Program-made: the position numbers and the translations under genes | From: Dehalogenimonas sp. THU2 | Lineage (GTDB): Bacteria > Chloroflexota > Dehalococcoidia > Dehalococcoidales > Dehalococcoidaceae | DNA length: 64,000 nucleotides | NCBI RefSeq assembly: GCF_039749495.1 | Contig: NZ_JBDLLU010000010.1 | Location: 1 to 64,000, forward strand | Reading direction: 5' to 3' | Shown: piece after piece, positions 8,409-24,553 of the stretch | Layout: each line of letters starts with the position of its first letter | How positions within the stretch are numbered: position 1 is the first letter of the stretch | The notes under the pieces: model-generated | Database searches by the model: none | What the model was told of the DNA's origin: nothing | The model's input: the letters and a program-made list of their open reading frames with translations, nothing else

Positions 8409-8761
8409 GGGGACGCGTGGTTTCGACAGTGGAGGTTAGTTACGGAATTGCAGGTTGAGCTTGTCGCTAAGCTCATTAATCCTGGCGGCAAAAAACAACT
8501 GGCGAACGTGAACTCGTTCTCGCTGGCTAAATAACGCTAGCGCATCCGCCGCGCCTTACCCTGACGGGCGCGAATCGGGTGCCGACAGCCGGGGTGCCGC
8601 TGACCTGATGCCGATATGGGAAGCGAAAGAAAAATCGGCTTGCCCGGCGATATTCCGCCGGTTGAAGCTCAAAGGGCAAGAACAAAGATCCGGCTAAACC
8701 TGTAGCATATTTCGGGCAGTCTTCTCTGGACGGGGAGTTCGACTCTCCCCCGTCTCCACCA
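8409..8761 (+). ncRNA. ssrA: transfer-messenger RNA (tmRNA)
   Basis: The one-piece tmRNA starts GGGGACG (8409-8415), which pairs with CGTCTCC at 8751-8757, followed by A and an encoded CCA (8759-8761). The T-loop GTTCGACTC is present near the 3' end. The tag reading frame ends GERELVLAG at TAA 8528-8530, preceded by the usual resume region; I recall this tag ending from Dehalococcoides. In Dehalococcoides, islands with reductive dehalogenase genes insert at ssrA; here the gene is intact and followed directly by its terminator, so the site seems unoccupied on this side. Confidence 0.96.
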
Positions 8762-12547: not shown

Positions 12548-12558
12548 ACCCCTCTAGT

Positions 12559-12853: not shown

Positions 12854-13900
12854 ATGACAGAAAAACGCCTGACCGAATACTCCGCGTACTCCGGCTGAGC
12901 AGCCAAGATAGGTCCGGGTGACCTGGCTAAAGCGCTCTGCGGCTTGCCCGTCAAAGCTTACCCTGAGGTATTGGTCGGTCTGGAAAAGGCCGATGACGCC
13001 GGGGTCTACCAGCTCACGCCCGAAATCGCCCTGGTGCAAACGATCGACGTCATAACCCCGGTTATCGACGACCCCTTCGCCTTCGGCCAGGTAGCCGCAG
13101 CCAATTCCCTTTCCGATGTTTATGCCATGGGCGGGCGCCCGGTAACGGCCATGAGCTTCGTGGGTTTTCCCATGGGCGAGATCGACGTGGAAGTGCTGCG
13201 ACTGATGCTGGCAGGGGCTTTGAACAAGCTTGACGAAGCCGGTTGCGCCCTGGTGGGCGGCCACTCCGTCAAGGATGTCGAGATCAAGTTCGGCCTGTCG
13301 GTCACCGGTATCATTCACCCCGATAAGGTGCTGACCAAGGGCGGCGCCCGGGTGGGGGACCGGCTGATACTGACCAAGCCCCTGGGCACCGGCATTTTGA
13401 ACACCGCCCTCAAGGCCGACCTGCTGGAACCGGCGGCGGTGCAGATGGTCATCGGCCAGATGACGGCCCTGAACAAGGCCGCCGCCGAAGTCATGACCGA
13501 ACTTGGCGCTCACGCCGCCACCGACATCACCGGCTTCGGGCTGATAGGCCACGCCGCCGAGATGGCTGGGCTGGGCGAGGTCAGCTTCAAGATGAGTTTT
13601 AAAGCGATACCGCTGATGGATGGGGCGCGGCAATGGGCGGAGGCGGGGCTGGTACCCGGCGGCGCCTATTCCAACCGCGGGTACCGCGAGGATATACTGG
13701 ATATGGACCTGCCGCTGGTCGAGGACTGGATGCTGGATGTCATCTTCGACCCGCAGACCTCGGGCGGCCTGCTCATCGCTGCTCCGGAGAATGTCGCCAA
13801 CGAGATGGTCGAGCGCATCCGGCAGCGCGGTTTTCCGGCGGCCGCCGTCATCGGCGAGGTGCTGGCTGAACCGGCCGGGCGTATAATCATCACCGAATAA
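12854..13900 (+). CDS. selD: selenophosphate synthetase, itself a selenoprotein
   Basis: SelD makes selenophosphate from selenide and ATP, the Se donor for Sec-tRNA. With TGA 12896-12898 read as Sec, the protein has 348 residues and begins MTEKRLTEYSAYSG-U-AAKIGP, where Sec15 takes the place of the catalytic Cys seen in other SelDs. Further motifs: DDAGVYQL, TIDVITPVIDDPFAFGQVAA in pieces, the Gly-rich VGGHSVKD, TDITGFGLIGHA and DPQTSGGLL. The ATG at 12854 has AAGGTGG upstream. A start at 12944 would miss the active-site loop. The tRNA-Sec gene is upstream; selA follows after 11 bases. Confidence 0.94.
12896..12928 (+). promoter_or_regulatory. bSECIS element of selD
   Basis: After UGA 12896-12898: AGCCA (12901-12905) pairs with TGGCT (12924-12928), and GGTC (12911-12914) with GACC (12920-12923) around loop CGGGT; AGATA forms a one-sided internal bulge. 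The apical loop lies about 17 bases after the UGA and contains G residues, as SelB requires. Confidence 0.7.
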
Positions 13901-17256: not shown

Positions 17257-18288
17257 TTATCCTTGGCTGATCGCGGTTGCGTAGAATCCGCTGGTAGCGT
17301 GGCTCTGCATTCCTTTATCGATGAGCATCGCTTCAATACCGGGCAACTTTTCAAAAAGGGCAATGGCATCAGTCACTCCCAGCACCATGGCAGCCGTAGC
17401 CATCGCATCAGCATAAGCCGTATCCGGGGCGATGACCGTAGCCGAAGCCACCTCCCGCGGGGAATGTCCCAGGCGGGGATCGATGATATGGTGCCACGAA
17501 TAATCCGCAGTGAAGGCGTTTTCGTAATCGCCGGAAGTAGCAATGCAATCATTGGACGTCTGCAACACTTCATAGTAGCCGGCCAGCGCCCGCGGGTGGG
17601 TCAGGCCGATCTTCCAAGGCTGGCCGTCCTGCCGCATGCCGCGAAGTGACATGTCGCCACCGGCTTCCACCAGGACCTGGGTAAGTCCGCGCGCCTTAAG
17701 CAGCGCCGCTGCCTGGTCGATGACATACCCCTTGGCGATGCCGTCGAGCGTCAGTCCCATGCCGGGTGCCGGGAGGCTGATAGTACGGCCGTTTACCCCG
17801 ATGTGGCGGTAATCGACCAGTTCCCTGGCGGTATCGATCGCCCGTTCGGAGGGCGGCTGGCCGCCGTCGGCGAAGGAGTCTCCGTAAAGCGTCAGCAGCG
17901 GCAGCACGCTAACATCAAAAGCACCGCCGGTTAGCTCGGAAAAGGCGATGGCTTTCTGCACTACGCCAGCCAGTTCCGGTGAAGCGTTGGCGATGAACCC
18001 GGTCCTGTTCAATATGGATAATTCACTGGCCGGGTCGTGGCGGGACAGCACCGCTGAGAGGCGCTCTATTTCCGCAAAAGCATCTTCAATCGCTGCTTTT
18101 GCCCGGTCCGTTTCGGTATCGATGAGCTTAATGGTGATGAAGGTGCCGAGAAGTGCCCGCGTCTCGGCGACTTCCTGAACCCCACCGGACTCGATGAGTT
18201 CTTTGACTCCCAGTCCTCCGAGGGCCAATACCCCGGCGCCGATAGCGCTGAGGCGCACAAAATCACGGCGGTTCATTTTGTTGGTCAT
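17257..18288 (-). CDS. apbE: FAD:protein FMN transferase with Tat signal
   Basis: ApbE attaches FMN through a phosphoester to Thr/Ser of extracytoplasmic flavoproteins. The 343-residue protein starts with a Tat signal, MNRRDFVRLSAIGAGVLALG, so it should be exported by the Tat system encoded 5 kb away. Family motifs: ETRALLGTFITIKL, LSRHDPASELSILN, GLTLDGIAKGYVIDQ, LVEAGGDMSLRG, ATSGDYENAF and HHIIDPRLGHSP. It is the last gene of the minus-strand operon; its likely targets are the two FMN-domain proteins at 20116 and 21508. Twenty-two bases separate it from the FeS flavoprotein gene. Confidence 0.94.
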   Translation of the reverse strand: MTNKMNRRDFVRLSAIGAGVLALGGLGVKELIESGGVQEVAETRALLGTFITIKLIDTETDRAKAAIEDAFAEIERLSAVLSRHDPASELSILNRTGFIANASPELAGVVQKAIAFSELTGGAFDVSVLPLLTLYGDSFADGGQPPSERAIDTARELVDYRHIGVNGRTISLPAPGMGLTLDGIAKGYVIDQAAALLKARGLTQVLVEAGGDMSLRGMRQDGQPWKIGLTHPRALAGYYEVLQTSNDCIATSGDYENAFTADYSWHHIIDPRLGHSPREVASATVIAPDTAYADAMATAAMVLGVTDAIALFEKLPGIEAMLIDKGMQSHATSGFYATAISQG

Positions 18289-18310
18289 ATCATTTTCCCT
18301 TTTTTCACGA

Positions 18311-20095
18311 TTACAGTTCGCCCAGCTTTGACAGCAGGACCGCCGCGATCAGCACTACCCCCACGGCTACGAGGGCGGTCAGTACCGTGGCGTAGCGCTT
18401 GCCGCCGGCATCTTTGATCTCGGCCGCTTTTTTGGCTGTTTCATATCCCGCGCCCGGTGTGATGGCGTTCCAATAACAAGTCTCGATGCAGCGGCCGCAG
18501 AACACGCAGACGCCGGTATCGAGCCGGTAGTCCTTCAACTCGTAGGTCAGATCGCATTTCAGACAGCGCCCGGCGTCGGCCACGGCCGCGGTGGCCGGCA
18601 GCGTCTGCTCGGAAGCCGCCAGGCTGCCGTCGTCCGCCCGGATCTGTTTGACCGGGACGGCGGGCGGGAATTTGCTCCGGAACTCCCGGATCGGCGTAAG
18701 CGCCCTGGCTGATTCCGGCGGTGCCAATCGCTGGTCTAAATCGCCACTCCCGCCAAAGTATCTGTCCATGGCGGCGGCAACCCAGCGGGCAGCGGCAATG
18801 GACTCGACCACTGAGCGCTGCTCGTTGACCGCATCGCCGGCAGCGAAAACGCTGGGACCGACTTCCATGGGACCTACCGGCGCACCATCGGCTCCCAGGG
18901 CCGAAACGACGTAGTCAGCGGTAAAAACTTCTTCGGCAGCGGGCAACGGATCGTAATCCAGTTCACCTTCCGCATCATAACCCAGAGCACGTATCTTACG
19001 TGCCCCCACCCCCAAGACCCGACCTTCCCCGGCGATCACCCGGTAGAATAGCGATGAAGAGTGGGTGATGACGCCTTCAGCCAGGGCTTCGTCGATCTCC
19101 CACGGATCGGCTTCGGCGCCGCCGGTATGTTCCTGGCCGAAAATATGGACCTCGCCGGCACCGCTGTGTACCGCGGCAAGTGCCGCTTTGAAAGCCACGG
19201 AACCGCCGCCGAGTACAGCGACCCGTTTGCCGGTTTCGATCTTCCATCCGGTCTCGATGTTCTTAATGAATGATTCTCCGTCGATGACCCCTTCGCTCCG
19301 GGCACCGGGGATCGGCAGCTTGAGCGATTTACCCCAGCCCTTTACACCAATAGCCAAAGCTATGCCATCAAAACCTTCACCCAAGAGAGCCGCGACCGAT
19401 TCGACTGTCGAGTTGGTTCTGATCTCGACGCCCAGGCTTTCGATGATGTTGATCTCAGCAGTTACCACATCCTTGGGCAACTGGTAGTACGGTATGCTGG
19501 ACAGCATCTTGCCGCCTTTGTCCGGCAAGGCTTCGAAAACGGTGACCTGGTGACCGAGCAGCGTCAGGTAATAGGCGATGGAAAGTCCGGCCGGTCCGGA
19601 CCCAATGACCGCCGCTCTCTTACCGGTAGGCGGAGCAATTTGAAGCTGCTGCCGCCATAGGCCCGAGTCGTTGGCCGCGGCAAATCGCTTGAGTGCCCGC
19701 AGAAGGAGCGACCCCTCGTACTTGCCCCGCTGGCATTCGGACTCACAGGGGCGCCGGCAGACATGCCCCAGCACCAGGGGGAACGGCACCCGCTCACGCA
19801 TCACCGCTGCGGCTTCGGCAAATTTCCCTTCGGCGATGAAGCGGACGTAACGGGAAGCGTCGAGACCCGCAGGGCAGGCTTGTGAGCAGGGGGCGGCTCG
19901 CATCCTTTTGGTCAGTTCCATGGTTCGGTCAAGGGTGATGGCGTCGACCGGGCAAATGCGGCTGCAACGCCCGCAGGCTGTACATTTAGCTTCCGACCAG
20001 TTGAATTCCTCATGACGGCCGAAACTGTGCGTCCGGCGTCCGACCCGGGCTTCCGGAACTATCACGGCGGCGGTTTTGGTATCTATCTTGGCCAT
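18311..20095 (-). CDS. GltD-like FAD/NAD(P) FeS oxidoreductase with C-terminal membrane anchor
   Basis: A 594-residue modular redox protein. Order: ferredoxin-like CTACGRCSRICP (about residues 38-49); the GltD-type cluster region CSQACP, then CRRPCESECQRG; the FAD motif GSGPAGLSIAYYL and a NAD(P) site VLGGGSVAFKAA; AAGDAV with the FAD-closing element; then GRCLKCD and CVFCGRCIETCYW, a second cluster motif; finally a hydrophobic helix of about 20 residues (TVLTALVAVGVVLIAAVLL) at the very C-terminus. It should sit on the inner face of the membrane and pass electrons between NAD(P)H or ferredoxin and a membrane partner. Its neighbours are two FMN/CX3CP membrane proteins and ApbE, with spacings of about 20 bases. 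The exact donor and acceptor are unknown. Confidence 0.87.
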   Translation of the reverse strand: MAKIDTKTAAVIVPEARVGRRTHSFGRHEEFNWSEAKCTACGRCSRICPVDAITLDRTMELTKRMRAAPCSQACPAGLDASRYVRFIAEGKFAEAAAVMRERVPFPLVLGHVCRRPCESECQRGKYEGSLLLRALKRFAAANDSGLWRQQLQIAPPTGKRAAVIGSGPAGLSIAYYLTLLGHQVTVFEALPDKGGKMLSSIPYYQLPKDVVTAEINIIESLGVEIRTNSTVESVAALLGEGFDGIALAIGVKGWGKSLKLPIPGARSEGVIDGESFIKNIETGWKIETGKRVAVLGGGSVAFKAALAAVHSGAGEVHIFGQEHTGGAEADPWEIDEALAEGVITHSSSLFYRVIAGEGRVLGVGARKIRALGYDAEGELDYDPLPAAEEVFTADYVVSALGADGAPVGPMEVGPSVFAAGDAVNEQRSVVESIAAARWVAAAMDRYFGGSGDLDQRLAPPESARALTPIREFRSKFPPAVPVKQIRADDGSLAASEQTLPATAAVADAGRCLKCDLTYELKDYRLDTGVCVFCGRCIETCYWNAITPGAGYETAKKAAEIKDAGGKRYATVLTALVAVGVVLIAAVLLSKLGEL

Positions 20096-20115
20096 TGATT
20101 CTCCTTCGCGGCAGC

Positions 20116-21309
20116 CTAACGTGCCGTCAACCGTCCGAATATGCCGGCAAACCAGGCCCTTATTTTAAGTATTACGTCCATGGTGGCGCCCACCGGACAG
20201 AGATAATGGCACCAGAAATCATGAATGAACATTGCTATTCCCAGCATTGCGACAACCAATAACCACTGAACAAGATTACCCTCGAGACTGAACAGGGTAT
20301 TCCATGGTTCAAACACAGAGAGCTGCGGCTGGCGGAAAACGAGCACCAGTATCACCACCGCCCACAGGATAACGTACCGAGTGTTGCGTAGCGCCAGTTG
20401 TCGCCGGGTCACCGGACGAACTTTACCGCCAGCGATAAAATAAGCACCTTCCTGGAGAGCGCAGAACGGGCATATCCAGAAACACCAGAAGTTTTTGGCA
20501 AAGATCAGTGCCAGCCCGATGATACCGAAAACCAGGATATAGAGATACAGGTTGGTTACCGGTGAGGGTGCGTAGCCGATAGGGAATACGACAAAGTTAA
20601 TCAGAGACAGCATACCCTTGAGTGCGATACCGAAGATGATAAGACCGAACCAAAGCATTGCGTTACGTGGCCACCGCATCTTTCTAAGTCCTGGTATTAT
20701 TCTCAAAGCCACCACTAAACTGAGACCGATGAGGAGGAGATACTCCGGCGGTCCGAGCTTGATCTGTTCTTTTTGGCCGACGAATGGTTGACCCAGATGT
20801 TCGGCCAACAACAAACGGCCATCATACACACCCTGGGCAATCCCGCGGGCTGAACGGGTAGCTCCGGCGACGCTATCGATATCTTCACCAAGAGTAAAGG
20901 GATCGGTAAATGTCCGGCCGATATACTGGCTGAAATAATCGTTATCGAAGATACGCGCGTACCAACTAGGTGTCTCCTGATCTTCTGGCACAAGTATGTT
21001 TAAAATAGTTCCATCGTTATCCCACGCTGCCGTCACCAGCATCGGGCCTCCGTAACCCTGACCTTGGCCGGCAGTGATATAGCCGATCTGGGAACCATTG
21101 GCTAAGGCGGAAAATAGATACTGATTATCGGCAGGCCGGCTTGAGATAAGCTCAAAAGAGCTTGCCTCCGGCATTGTCTCTGGCAGATAGGTTTCAACAT
21201 CCGTTGAGAGAGTTAGTTCACCGAACAACCATGCACCGAGGAAACTAAAAATCACACCGGCGACGAGGAGTTTTTTCCCATGGAGTGTCCAGAAATCGTT
21301 CCGCGCCAA
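20116..21309 (-). CDS. RdhC/NosR-like FMN-binding membrane protein, paralog 2
   Basis: A 397-residue membrane flavoprotein. An N-terminal helix (about 13-31) precedes an exoplasmic FMN-binding domain with YGGPMLV and the attachment motif DSVAGATRS, Thr 151 being the predicted site of covalent FMN. Five or so membrane helices follow, with two CX3CP motifs, CFWICP (Cys 276, 280) and CHYLCP (Cys 367, 371), as in NosR and in RdhC/PceC of organohalide-respiring bacteria. Such proteins are thought to carry electrons across the membrane. Its closest relative in the window is the gene at 21508. No rdhA/rdhB or nos gene is adjacent, so its acceptor is open. Confidence 0.88.
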   Translation of the reverse strand: MARNDFWTLHGKKLLVAGVIFSFLGAWLFGELTLSTDVETYLPETMPEASSFELISSRPADNQYLFSALANGSQIGYITAGQGQGYGGPMLVTAAWDNDGTILNILVPEDQETPSWYARIFDNDYFSQYIGRTFTDPFTLGEDIDSVAGATRSARGIAQGVYDGRLLLAEHLGQPFVGQKEQIKLGPPEYLLLIGLSLVVALRIIPGLRKMRWPRNAMLWFGLIIFGIALKGMLSLINFVVFPIGYAPSPVTNLYLYILVFGIIGLALIFAKNFWCFWICPFCALQEGAYFIAGGKVRPVTRRQLALRNTRYVILWAVVILVLVFRQPQLSVFEPWNTLFSLEGNLVQWLLVVAMLGIAMFIHDFWCHYLCPVGATMDVILKIRAWFAGIFGRLTAR

Positions 21310-21433
21310 CTCAAACCCTCTCTTTTATGCCCCGGATAACCCCGCCATGTCCGAGGAAAATACCACTGTAATCTGCCATTACAATACTGGTTAAGAAGGA
21401 TAGCACTGGCCTCCTCCGGAGTCAAACCCGCCT

Positions 21434-21565
21434 CTACCCCAGCACGACCGCCACTTTATTGAAAATAACGTAGAGCGCTATCACGAACCCCGTACCGGCT
21501 AATAGTGCTACGAAGATGTTCGCGGTGCGTCGTGGCTTGCCGCGGATTTGTTGTTTTTGTGCCAT
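21434..21565 (-). CDS. possible 43-residue single-helix membrane protein
   Basis: Unrecognised. From ATG 21565 (GGGGGG about ten bases upstream) it gives a basic N-terminus (MAQKQQIRGKPRRTAN) and one hydrophobic helix (IFVALLAGTGFVIALYVIF). It overlaps the 3' end of the upstream flavoprotein gene by 58 bases in another frame, and is followed by 124 bases before the next gene. The topology (positive inside, one helix) would suit a small subunit of the membrane complex. It could be a chance frame. Confidence 0.45.
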   Translation of the reverse strand: MAQKQQIRGKPRRTANIFVALLAGTGFVIALYVIFNKVAVVLG

Positions 21566-22737
21566 AGTTCGATAACCCCCCGGCGGACTCTTAAAATGAT
21601 ATCCATGACCGCGCCGATCGGACAGAGATAATGACACCAAAAGTCATAGATAAAGATAGCGGCACCTAGGGCGAAAATCATCAACACCCATTGATCGGCG
21701 GTACCTTTCAAACTAAAGAGCACGTTCCATGGTTCAAAAACCGATACCGACGGATTCTTCAGTGCCAGGACCAGGAACAGAGCGATGAACAAGAGCAGAT
21801 AACGCGCGTTCCGCAGAAATTTGAACCACTTGACGTCGGGCTGGATTCTTACACGGAATATGGAATGTATCAATTCCTGAACTGCTACATATGGACAAAG
21901 CCAGAAACAATAAAAATTCTTGCCCAGTACGACCGCCAGACCTAATATACCGAAGACAATGATGTATATCATGATGAACGTTTCCACAGGAGGTGCGTAA
22001 CCCACCAGCCATGCGGCGATGTTGGTCAGACTCAGGGGTACTGAAAGCCAGATACCGAAAACCACCAGGCTGTAGGCAAGCATGGTACCCCGCGCCCATG
22101 TGAGTCGCCTGAACAGGGGTATGGTCCGCAGTAACACAACCGATAAGATGCCCGCGATAACGGCGATCTCCGGCGTCCCGAACTGGATGGGGTCACCCGG
22201 TCCTGTGAAAGGTTGACCCAGGTGACTGGCCAAAACGCCGCGACCGGCACGCACCCCTACCGCGACGCCGTTGGAGGAGACAGTTGAGCCAGTGGCGGCG
22301 TCGATATCTTCGTTCAGCCGTAACGGTTCGATGAAACCGCGCCCGTTGTACTGTTGAAAAAAGCCTCGCTGTTCCAACGCGCGCCACCAGGGAATATCCT
22401 CGTGGTGTTCCGGAACCGTGACGCCGGTAATGACGCCGTCCAGGGTCCAGTTGACCAGCACCGTCATCGGCCCACCGTAACCGGGTCCCTCTGCGGCGGT
22501 GACATAACTCAGATCCTGTCCATCGGCGTCCCTTGCCACGAACAAGACTGTGCCACCGCTGGAGCGCAAGGCATTAAAAGTTACGGCGCCGGGTACGCTG
22601 TCCGGTAAAAAAGGTTCGAAGCCGGATAAACCGTGACTGAACTGCCCATAAATGGCGGCGCCCAGCAGCGCCACCACCGCCAGAGCGAAGACTGCCCTGG
22701 AGACATGACGTTTGAACAAGCTACCGGTTGGCACCAT
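21508..22737 (-). CDS. RdhC/NosR-like FMN-binding membrane protein, paralog 1
   Basis: The 409-residue paralog of the 20116 gene and first gene of the operon. N-terminal helix (about 14-30), exoplasmic FMN domain with YGGPMTVLV and the motif DAATGSTVSS (Thr 152 is the predicted FMN site; GST instead of the usual GAT), then membrane helices with CFWLCP (Cys 277, 281) and CHYLCP (Cys 368, 372). VFEPWNVLFSLKG before the last helices is shared almost exactly with the paralog. A basic, Ser-rich C-terminus is unique to this copy. Two copies in one operon may form a heterodimer or two parallel routes. Confidence 0.88.
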   Translation of the reverse strand: MVPTGSLFKRHVSRAVFALAVVALLGAAIYGQFSHGLSGFEPFLPDSVPGAVTFNALRSSGGTVLFVARDADGQDLSYVTAAEGPGYGGPMTVLVNWTLDGVITGVTVPEHHEDIPWWRALEQRGFFQQYNGRGFIEPLRLNEDIDAATGSTVSSNGVAVGVRAGRGVLASHLGQPFTGPGDPIQFGTPEIAVIAGILSVVLLRTIPLFRRLTWARGTMLAYSLVVFGIWLSVPLSLTNIAAWLVGYAPPVETFIMIYIIVFGILGLAVVLGKNFYCFWLCPYVAVQELIHSIFRVRIQPDVKWFKFLRNARYLLLFIALFLVLALKNPSVSVFEPWNVLFSLKGTADQWVLMIFALGAAIFIYDFWCHYLCPIGAVMDIILRVRRGVIELWHKNNKSAASHDAPRTSS

Positions 22738-22844: not shown

Positions 22845-22868
22845 AAAAAACCCGACTTTCCGTCGGGT
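22845..22868 (-). terminator. terminator of the tat operon
   Basis: Stem ACCCGAC (22850-22856) with GTCGGGT (22862-22868) and, on the minus strand, a run of six T (22845-22850). It follows the tatC stop codon at 22923 by 55 bases. Confidence 0.85.
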
Positions 22869-22922: not shown

Positions 22923-23690
22923 TCAGGCAGCCGTAGCCGGTTTTCGCCGACCGATGATACGGGTGAGCCAGATGGAAATTTCGTACAAAACGATTAACGG
23001 AGCAGCGATCAATGTCTGGGTGATGGGGTCCAGGGTTGGCGTTATGAAAGCGGAGAGGACGAACGCCAAAACAAACCATATCTTGCGCTTCGAAGCCAGC
23101 CATTTTGAACTTACAATGCCGACCACCGACAGGGTACCTAAAATGATCGGCATTTCAAAGGCTAGCCCAATAGCAACTAAGAGCCTTAGTACCAGATCGA
23201 TATATGTGCTGATGCGGGGTGCTACCGTAACAATATCACTGCCAAATTCAAAGAGAAAGAACATAGTGACCGGCAGCGCCAAAAAATAAGCGAATGCGAC
23301 GCCGGCAAGAAATAGACTGACGATAAATGGGAAAGTGGTAAAAATTATCTTTTTTTCTTTAGGAGTGAAGGCTGGCGACAGGAAAGCAAAAAATTGGTAT
23401 AGCACCCAAGGCATGGCTATGATAAAACCGGCAGTCAGGGCGACCCGGAAATAGACGCTGATATATTCGAGAACGTCGATTGACTGAACGTTATCGGCAA
23501 GTTCACCTGCAGGCTCCAGCAACATGAGGACAAGCTGGTCGCCGAAGAACATGGCGATAACCGTACCTGCCACTATACCGCCGATGGAGCGGAAAAAGCG
23601 CTGTCGCATCTCGGTGAAATGTTGGGTGATGGGCAGACGCTTTTCTTGGTCGGTCATATTATCGGTATGGCCCTTCTTAATTTCAGGCAA
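22923..23690 (-). CDS. tatC: twin-arginine translocase subunit TatC
   Basis: Core receptor of the Tat pathway for folded proteins. The 255-residue protein has six predicted helices and family motifs: LPITQHFTEMRQRFFRS at residues 20-36, FLSPAFTPKEKK, PFIVSLFLAGVAFAYF and the helix-3/4 region with FEFGSDIV. It begins at ATG 23690, one base after the stop of the tatB-like gene. Substrates in this window include the ApbE protein. Confidence 0.96.
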   Translation of the reverse strand: MPEIKKGHTDNMTDQEKRLPITQHFTEMRQRFFRSIGGIVAGTVIAMFFGDQLVLMLLEPAGELADNVQSIDVLEYISVYFRVALTAGFIIAMPWVLYQFFAFLSPAFTPKEKKIIFTTFPFIVSLFLAGVAFAYFLALPVTMFFLFEFGSDIVTVAPRISTYIDLVLRLLVAIGLAFEMPIILGTLSVVGIVSSKWLASKRKIWFVLAFVLSAFITPTLDPITQTLIAAPLIVLYEISIWLTRIIGRRKPATAA

Positions 23691-23951
23691 TTATTTTTTA
23701 TCGCTGCCGCTCAGGAATTTATCGAGGCTAGGGCTTGAGGAGGTACTTGGAGCCTTACCGGTGGACTTGGTCGGGGAGCTGTCGATTGCCTTTGTAAACT
23801 CCTTAGTCATCTCAGTGGTGATCTTGCGAAAACTACGTACGAACTCACCGGCTTTTTTGGCGAACTCGGGTATCCTGTTAGGCCCGAAAACAAGTGTGGC
23901 GATGACGAGGATCGTAATGATCTCGAATGTGCCCATGCCAAAAAAATTCAT
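23691..23951 (-). CDS. Sec-independent translocase TatA/TatB-like protein
   Basis: An 86-residue single-helix protein: MNFFGMGTFEIITILVIATL, then FGPNRIPEFAKKAGEFVRSF, an amphipathic helix and a Ser/Lys-rich tail. The conserved FGP after the helix, the long amphipathic segment and the position directly before tatC favour a TatB-like role, but TatA and TatB cannot be separated safely by eye. Confidence 0.88.
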   Translation of the reverse strand: MNFFGMGTFEIITILVIATLVFGPNRIPEFAKKAGEFVRSFRKITTEMTKEFTKAIDSSPTKSTGKAPSTSSSPSLDKFLSGSDKK

Positions 23952-23992
23952 CTAGCCACCTATGCCTTATCGCTCAAGAATGATCCGGCGCC

Positions 23993-24235
23993 TTAGCCGG
24001 TCTTCGTGCCTTCTTTACTATCCCGAGCCCTGCGGTTGACCTCTTTGGCGGCAATGCCGTCTTCCAGTTTGGTCACCACCTTGGTTTTTTCGGTTTTGTC
24101 TTCGCCGCCGACCGCGCTCCGCAACTGGCGGACGCCTTTGCCCAGAGTTCTGCCCACCGCCGGGACGAAGGCCGCCCCGGTGATCAGCAATATAATAACA
24201 ATGATCAGTATAATTTCAAAAGGTCCGAATCGCAT
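23993..24235 (-). CDS. TatA-family protein, divergent copy
   Basis: An 80-residue TatA/E relative: MRFGPFEIILIIVIILLITG followed by AAFVPAVGRTLGKGVRQLR. It keeps the helix plus amphipathic arrangement but has TGAAFVP where TatA proteins usually have FG-x-x-K-LP. Between two other tat genes on the same strand, with gaps of 41 and 63 bases. Three TatA/B-like genes in one operon is more than the minimal set. Confidence 0.85.
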   Translation of the reverse strand: MRFGPFEIILIIVIILLITGAAFVPAVGRTLGKGVRQLRSAVGGEDKTEKTKVVTKLEDGIAAKEVNRRARDSKEGTKTG

Positions 24236-24298
24236 GGCGATCCCCCTCCGGGAGTGTGTCCCCCGTAATGGCTGAGGCGCTCCAGCGCCTTTCCGGTA

Positions 24299-24553
24299 TT
24301 ATGCCTTATCGGCGGTTTCGGTCTTGGGTTTTTCCTCGGTTTCCGGTTTGACGGCTACGATCTCGGTCTTAGCTTCGACCGGCTCTTCCTTCTTCTCTTC
24401 CTTAACTTCTTCCTCATCCTCACCGGATGAAGCCTTTTGGAAGGACTTCAGGCCTTTGCCCAGGGCTTCGCCGACCTGCGGTAACTTGCCGACACCAAAG
24501 ATTAGAAGAACGATCACCAGGATTATGACTAACTCCATTGGTCCTAAGCGCAT
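24299..24553 (-). CDS. tatA: Sec-independent translocase TatA
   Basis: Pore-forming Tat subunit, 84 residues: [20 protein letters not shown], then [21 protein letters not shown] and an acidic/Lys-rich tail ([16 protein letters not shown]). The FG at the helix end and [12 protein letters not shown] are canonical. First gene of the tat operon, with an AGGAGG ribosome binding site before the ATG. Confidence 0.93.

Follow-up and report, generated by a model that had tools for sequence, protein, structure and literature searches.

The RdhC proteins (PceC, VcrC, CprC and TmrC) combine an N-terminal extracytoplasmic FMN domain, with a conserved threonine, and a six-helix membrane part that carries two CX3CP motifs and is followed by no C-terminal ferredoxin. 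PceC, the best studied of them, bears covalent FMN on the outer face, and an RdhC FMN motif reading [S/T]G[A/S]TX[S/T] has been published in work that already catalogued nine Dehalogenimonas clusters for RdhC (PMC5928378). The NosR/NapH-like flavinylation systems (eLife 2021, PMC8238504) likewise join a PF12801 membrane module to FMN_bind and ApbE, and this class has been proposed to take electrons across the membrane.

We report the analysis of a 64,000-nucleotide stretch of DNA (the window) from Dehalogenimonas sp. THU2, whose genome is 1.84 Mb in size and 99.8% complete. Unlike the described members of the RdhC family, the RdhC-type proteins found here form a paralogue pair in a fixed, tat-linked core cluster with a GltD-like protein and apbE, have no dedicated rdhABC operon and are accompanied by a small helix protein.

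Gene content of the cluster and its flavoproteins

The cluster lies at 17257–22737 of the window and is transcribed from the minus strand in the order flv1, small ORF, flv2, GltD-like gene, apbE. A preliminary description of this DNA had proposed a four-gene anatomy, and we confirm it at these coordinates, with all four genes on the minus strand and with matching Pfam domains. Chance can be excluded as an explanation for the arrangement, since the cluster is conserved across 11 complete genomes of the family.

The conserved neighbour upstream of flv1 is a set of Tat genes, tatA1, tatA2, tatB and tatC (22923–24553, minus strand). A terminator-like hairpin between tatC and flv1 (22850–22868, minus strand; ACCCGACGGAAAGTCGGGT then TTTTT), identified as a consensus match, suggests that flv1–apbE is a separate transcription unit; it is suggestive only, because such matches are equally frequent in shuffled sequence and their count in the region is not above chance. 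Downstream of apbE, selD, selA and selB lie in the opposite orientation, and we found no evidence of a selenoprotein within the flv1–apbE operon. SelD itself (12854–13900, plus strand) is probably a selenoprotein, because an in-frame TGA (MTEKRLTEYSAYSG-U-AAKIGPGDL) follows its apparent start at 12854, the listed ORF beginning only past the TGA. A tRNA-Sec gene is found at 12558 and a tmRNA gene at 8409–8761 (plus strand); the tmRNA gene of Dehalococcoides is described as the integration site of vcrABC islands (PMC3146451).

Flv1 (21508–22737, minus strand) and Flv2 (20116–21309, minus strand) each contain FMN_bind (PF04205) and two Fer4_5 matches (PF12801), and Pfam detects no other Fer4 domain in either. 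Their hydropathy profiles show about six helices, the first and second being separated by a loop of 150 residues; in Flv1 the N-terminal helix is followed by the FMN domain and then by about five further helices. The CX3CP motifs lie at residues 277 and 368 of Flv1 (CFWLCP/CHYLCP) and 276 and 367 of Flv2 (CFWICP/CHYLCP), and all four of their cysteines per protein are invariant in the 23 sequences compared. So too, among 23 aligned homologues, is the threonine predicted to carry covalent FMN, which is Thr152 in Flv1 (codon 22282–22284, minus strand) and Thr151 in Flv2 (codon 20857–20859, minus strand). The surrounding TGSTVS of Flv1 fits the published RdhC motif and the AGATRS of Flv2 fits it except at the first position. 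AlphaFold gave a confident model of Flv1 for the FMN domain only, with low confidence in the membrane part; the modelled domain matches RnfG structures and sequence searching agrees.

Judged by these sequence features, Flv1 and Flv2 are members of the known RdhC family, that is, RdhC/NapH-like proteins with an FMN domain. The RdhC-type half of the 'RdhC/NosR-like' label given to them earlier thus stands, and the NosR half holds only in part: unlike NosR, neither protein has a C-terminal 2x[4Fe-4S] ferredoxin, a putative cytoplasmic GltD-like input replaces quinol, and NosZ is lacking. No nitrous oxide reductase had been noted nearby, and nosZ is in fact absent from the whole genome, on which ground a role in N2O reduction was rejected. 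Membership of an Rnf or Nqr complex was rejected as well; RnfG and NqrC share the fold of the FMN domain, but such an Rnf or Nqr complex is absent from the genome, whose only two FMN_bind proteins are Flv1 and Flv2. Two further Fer4_5 membrane proteins, without an FMN domain, are found at G000:C3:38639-39175 (L096 6049-7440) and G000:C2:104958 (L097 6743-7609), the latter near a Tat-signalled protein resembling multicopper oxidases.

In a maximum-likelihood tree, the Flv1 proteins of Dehalogenimonas group with the first tat-linked copy of Dehalococcoides (support 87/90), and the Flv2 proteins with the second such copy and with sequences of other families (a 13-row clade, 100/99). The duplication therefore predates the split of Dehalogenimonas from Dehalococcoides, and both copies have been retained.

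The last gene, apbE (17257–18288, minus strand), encodes a putative FAD:protein FMN transferase that matches PF02424 over its full length (1-266/266, E = 1e-75). It opens with a Tat signal, NRRDFVRLS, scoring 18.6 bits against the NCBIfam cut-off of 16.7 bits, which bears out the earlier proposal of a Tat-exported ApbE, and it is the sole ApbE of the genome. An ApbE adjoining an rnf-like operon in a related genome (L103) starts, by our reading of the sequence, with a lipoprotein-type signal. In several sister species apbE is followed by a short one-helix protein with a Thr/Pro-rich tail (L050 3761-3997, L051 2995-3306, L055 5175-5408), which was not seen in the window.

The GltD-like protein and a shared helix

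The GltD-like Fe-S flavoprotein (18311–20095, minus strand) gives Pfam matches to Fer4, Fer4_20 and Pyr_redox_2. Its residues 68–516 align to the structures of NfnA, NfnL and GltD and its C-terminal ferredoxin motif aligns to NuoI. It shares Fer4_20 and the FAD/NAD core with FAD-Fe-S oxidoreductases of the NfnL/GltD/DPD type and differs from them in the NuoI-type ferredoxin motifs that flank this core, in a strongly hydrophobic C-terminal membrane helix (residues 570–588; 18332–18388, minus strand) and in the loss of the NADPH arginine pair. An AlphaFold model of the protein built with three sequences was poor (mean pLDDT 40.6) and was set aside. The protein keeps every Fe-S cysteine, the FAD motif and the glycines of the dinucleotide site. 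The Arg-Arg motif for NADPH is not kept: this protein and its tail-anchored orthologues across the genus read FGQEH, in contrast to YRR in the GltD domain of a formate dehydrogenase and in L104. NADH or ferredoxin is more likely than NADPH to be the donor, because the arginine pair for the 2'-phosphate is lost; the earlier proposal of NAD(P)H or ferredoxin as the source of electrons thus loses its NADPH part.

A paralogue of this protein with a NuoI-like N-terminus is encoded in the nuo operon of other Dehalococcoidales, between genes that we read as NuoH-like and NuoJ-like. These NuoI-GltD hybrids, at the NuoI position (L103 5910-7820, L104 6758-8680), have the same domain order as the GltD-like protein and about 41% identity to it over the core, but the nuo-linked form has the NuoI-like N-terminus and no C-terminal helix. 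In a complex I that lacks NuoEFG, such a hybrid may act as the subunit through which electrons enter.

Between flv1 and flv2 lies a small ORF (21434–21565, minus strand) that the preliminary description had overlooked and that, as far as the literature shows, has gone unremarked. Its product of 43 amino acids has a basic N-terminus and a single helix, and the first 58 nt of the ORF coincide with the 3' end of flv1. Each of the nine flv1 copies of Dehalogenimonas is accompanied by an intact ORF of this kind (40–44 residues), which starts within flv1, 52–61 nt ahead of its 3' end. Outside the overlap its pN/pS is 0.53, compared with 0.89 and 1.14 in the shifted frames, and its third codon positions are the most variable (0.36, 0.30, 0.56). 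A second flv1 copy of one species (G031; L063 7985-8847) is split into two frames and its small helix ORF is intact. Similar small ORFs follow the first tat-linked copy in Dehalococcoides, copies in L004 and L005, and most of the rdhAB-linked RdhC genes of Dehalococcoides.

A set of 5,234 ORFs, of which 715 have a strong hydrophobic window, was searched with a profile of the small proteins, which recovered its own family first and then the C-terminal tails of the GltD-like proteins; the reverse search, with a profile of these tails, recovered the small proteins (best E = 6e-6). In neither direction did any of 400 permutations of the helix columns reach the observed score, the means being 12.4 against 1.2 (s.d. 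1.1) and 6.5 against -0.8 (s.d. 1.1). Alignment of the two profiles by hhalign gave E = 7e-7, although a hydrophobic match this short is not enough on its own to tell common descent from convergence. It follows from this match that RdhC genes here, as a rule, precede a gene with the helix, which is free after Flv1-type genes and fused to GltD after flv2. Two cases break this rule: the second tat-linked copy of Dehalococcoides, where the GltD gene lies elsewhere, and a copy in L093 that is fused to a diphthamide-synthase domain. This Dehalococcoides fusion (G027; L093 6876-8594) carries a domain of the Diphthami_syn_2 type, and a similar protein is encoded by the next gene in L092 and L095.

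The simplest reading would be that the shared helix serves as a docking helix for RdhC. The anchored protein had been put forward as the input on the cytoplasmic side; this is supported as its likely role, and the match between its anchor and the RdhC-linked small protein lends independent support to a physical pairing with RdhC.

Synteny and association with rdhA

The order flv2–GltD–apbE is conserved in all eight Dehalogenimonas species (the apbE frame of L051 is displaced by overlapping ORFs in the map, the gene being found by search) and every one of the eight retains both flv1 and flv2. In six of them flv1 follows tatC; it has been relocated in G031 and G032. Dehalococcoides has the arrangement tat-flv1-flv2-apbE, with the GltD-like gene elsewhere, and other families show tat-flv-GltD-apbE (G155), tat-flv-apbE (G003) or flv-flv-GltD-apbE (L004). 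Tied as it is to the tat genes in both Dehalogenimonas and Dehalococcoides, the module therefore looks like one shared core RdhC module.

The THU2 genome holds 16 distinct rdhA genes (23 domain matches merged by gene), none of those listed being on the contig of the window. A search for the operon with and without rdhA, as the preliminary description had suggested, found rdhA between flv1 and flv2 in five of the seven sister species (three genes in G033, two in G035 and one each in G034, G036 and G030) and none at the THU2 site, where the interval (21310–21433, minus strand) is empty. The chance expectation is 0.02–0.05 rdhA per gap, with the qualification that the five occupied gaps are not independent, owing to shared descent. 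No relic of rdhA was seen in the THU2 gap, and a second small ORF within it (21314–21406) is conserved in no relative.

The rdhA genes of the gap form one group of two (G033a/G034, 88% identical) and another of four (G035a/G035b/G036/G030, 62–81% identical), with about 34% identity between the groups, and two more lineages occur in G033. Genus-wide searches showed the closest relatives of the second group to be confined to the flv1/flv2 gap and, in the THU2 genome, detected nothing close to either group. Different rdhA genes, of at least two unrelated lineages, have therefore reached the same site more than once. Some of these genes are opposite in orientation to flv1 and flv2, so that co-transcription with them is not general. 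The gap rdhA of G030 (530 amino acids, 82% identical to a gap rdhA of G035) fits DEALK_04890, reported as 530 amino acids long with 81% identity to DGWBC_1769 in a paper that also describes the Tat operon DEALK_04830-04860 (PMC4918011). The words rdhC, FMN and flavin do not occur in the text of that paper, nor do flavin, RdhC and Tat in that of a 2026 comparison of Dehalogenimonas respiratory modules (PMC13390414).

Full-length relatives are present in 15 of the 156 genomes of the order. Thirteen of these 15 have rdhA, against 21 of the 141 others; at genus level, rdhA is found in 4 of the 5 genera with the module and in 19 of 85 overall (p = 0.008). The two genomes with the module in which rdhA was not detected are MAGs, G003 (93% complete, 8% contaminated) and G072 (87% complete). 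A class-wide sample of 393 genomes yielded no further relatives at E <= 1e-40, and within this sample the operon was confined to a few lineages of the order.

The earlier remark that no dehalogenase is nearby is thus correct for the window and incomplete for the genome and its sister species. Synteny goes far towards identifying RdhA as the final acceptor, then described as unknown, and the pathway proposed at that time is plausible.

Proposed function and its alternatives

On balance, and with moderate confidence, we favour the interpretation that the cluster is a shared core RdhC module supplying electrons from the inside to the outside of the membrane, to Tat-exported RdhA, more probably for activation or reduction than for the main flux. 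Its parts would be two ancient RdhC paralogues, the enzyme that transfers FMN to them, and an electron-input protein tethered to the membrane on the cytoplasmic side. We infer the order, and even the direction, of electron flow: a donor in the cytoplasm (NADH or ferredoxin, with NADPH unlikely) would reduce the GltD-like protein, whose Fe-S clusters would pass the electrons on to Flv2 at its CX3CP region, where the C-terminal helix of the GltD-like protein would dock, and from there they would reach covalent FMN outside. The small protein would be a free-standing copy of the docking helix, acting for Flv1. The recipients would be the Tat-exported RdhA enzymes, the service being divided among the 16 rdhA products, and activation or re-reduction of their corrinoid and Fe-S centres seems likelier than the main respiratory flux.

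This interpretation draws on the domains and motifs, the sole FMN_bind pair and sole ApbE beside 16 rdhA genes, the occupied gaps in five of seven sister species with at least two unrelated rdhA lineages, the tat linkage, RdhA being a Tat substrate (PMC4918011, PMC7918482), the genus-level association, the reciprocal helix match, the duplication older than the genus split and the small ORF beside rdhAB-linked RdhC in Dehalococcoides. Against it stand the lack of an adjacent rdhA here, the partly reversed orientation of those in the sister gaps, the two MAGs with the module and no rdhA, some 20 genomes with rdhA and no module, the unlinked GltD gene in Dehalococcoides, the silence of the Dehalococcoides complexome paper (PMC6005880) on any flavoprotein or RdhC, the deviation of Flv2 at the first motif position and the poor AlphaFold models of the membrane part and the GltD-like protein.

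The same proteins might instead form a true respiratory branch, in which cytoplasmic NADH or ferredoxin would provide RdhA, in stoichiometric amounts, with electrons that are energy-conserving or of low potential. The protein at the input has a paralogue among the subunits of complex I (NuoI-type), and Dehalococcoidia, which use no quinones, need a protein relay (PMC5928378). However, Firmicutes contain about 50-fold less PceC than PceA (PMC10624902), which fits activation better than stoichiometric respiration, and so does one RdhC pair for 16 RdhAs, adjoining the Tat genes. Furthermore, in the known Dehalococcoides chain electrons pass from hydrogenase to RdhA by way of HupX and OmeA (PMC6005880), the main flux in the group being thought to follow this Hup-Ome-Rdh route on the outer face, and that complexome paper names no flavoprotein (FMN, flavo and RdhC do not occur in it); we consider the branch unlikely.

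We hold it similarly improbable that the recipient is some other Tat-exported or extracytoplasmic partner (an FdnG/OmeA enzyme, metals, or the redox upkeep of exported Fe-S proteins) and that rdhA merely integrates at the site. The varied orientation of the gap genes and the MAGs without detected rdhA would agree with this, as would the established mobility of rdhA genes in the group (PMC3146451), but published RdhC genes sit in rdh operons, as do the further Dehalococcoides copies here, and the association with rdhA at genus level also argues for RdhA. That the THU2 cluster is a remnant which has lost both rdhA and function, as its empty interval might suggest, is very improbable, given intact frames, fully conserved motifs, about 70% identity with the closest orthologues in sister species, retention of the only ApbE of the genome and of both flv genes in all eight species.

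The proteins belong to known families. As far as the literature shows, no earlier description exists of the tat-linked module that the RdhAs would share, of the paralogue of the NuoI-GltD hybrid or of the protein with the putative docking helix. What RdhC contributes to organohalide respiration has yet to be settled, and nothing so far explains where the quinone-free Dehalococcoidia obtain the low-potential electrons needed to reduce corrinoid. A core RdhC module that has an input protein of its own, is common to many RdhAs and is tied to Tat would offer concrete candidate partners (the GltD-like protein, the small helix protein, Flv1, Flv2 and ApbE) and could bear on the difficulty of obtaining active RdhA from Dehalococcoidia elsewhere. 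More tentatively, and as a possibility on which we would not yet rely, a complex I-derived NuoI-GltD chimera that gained a docking helix may drive electrons from NADH or ferredoxin through RdhC to the exported dehalogenases, the free 42-residue helix adapting the other RdhC to a donor of its own. If true, this would represent a new inside-out electron route in quinone-free bacteria and a general redox service for the whole dehalogenase set.
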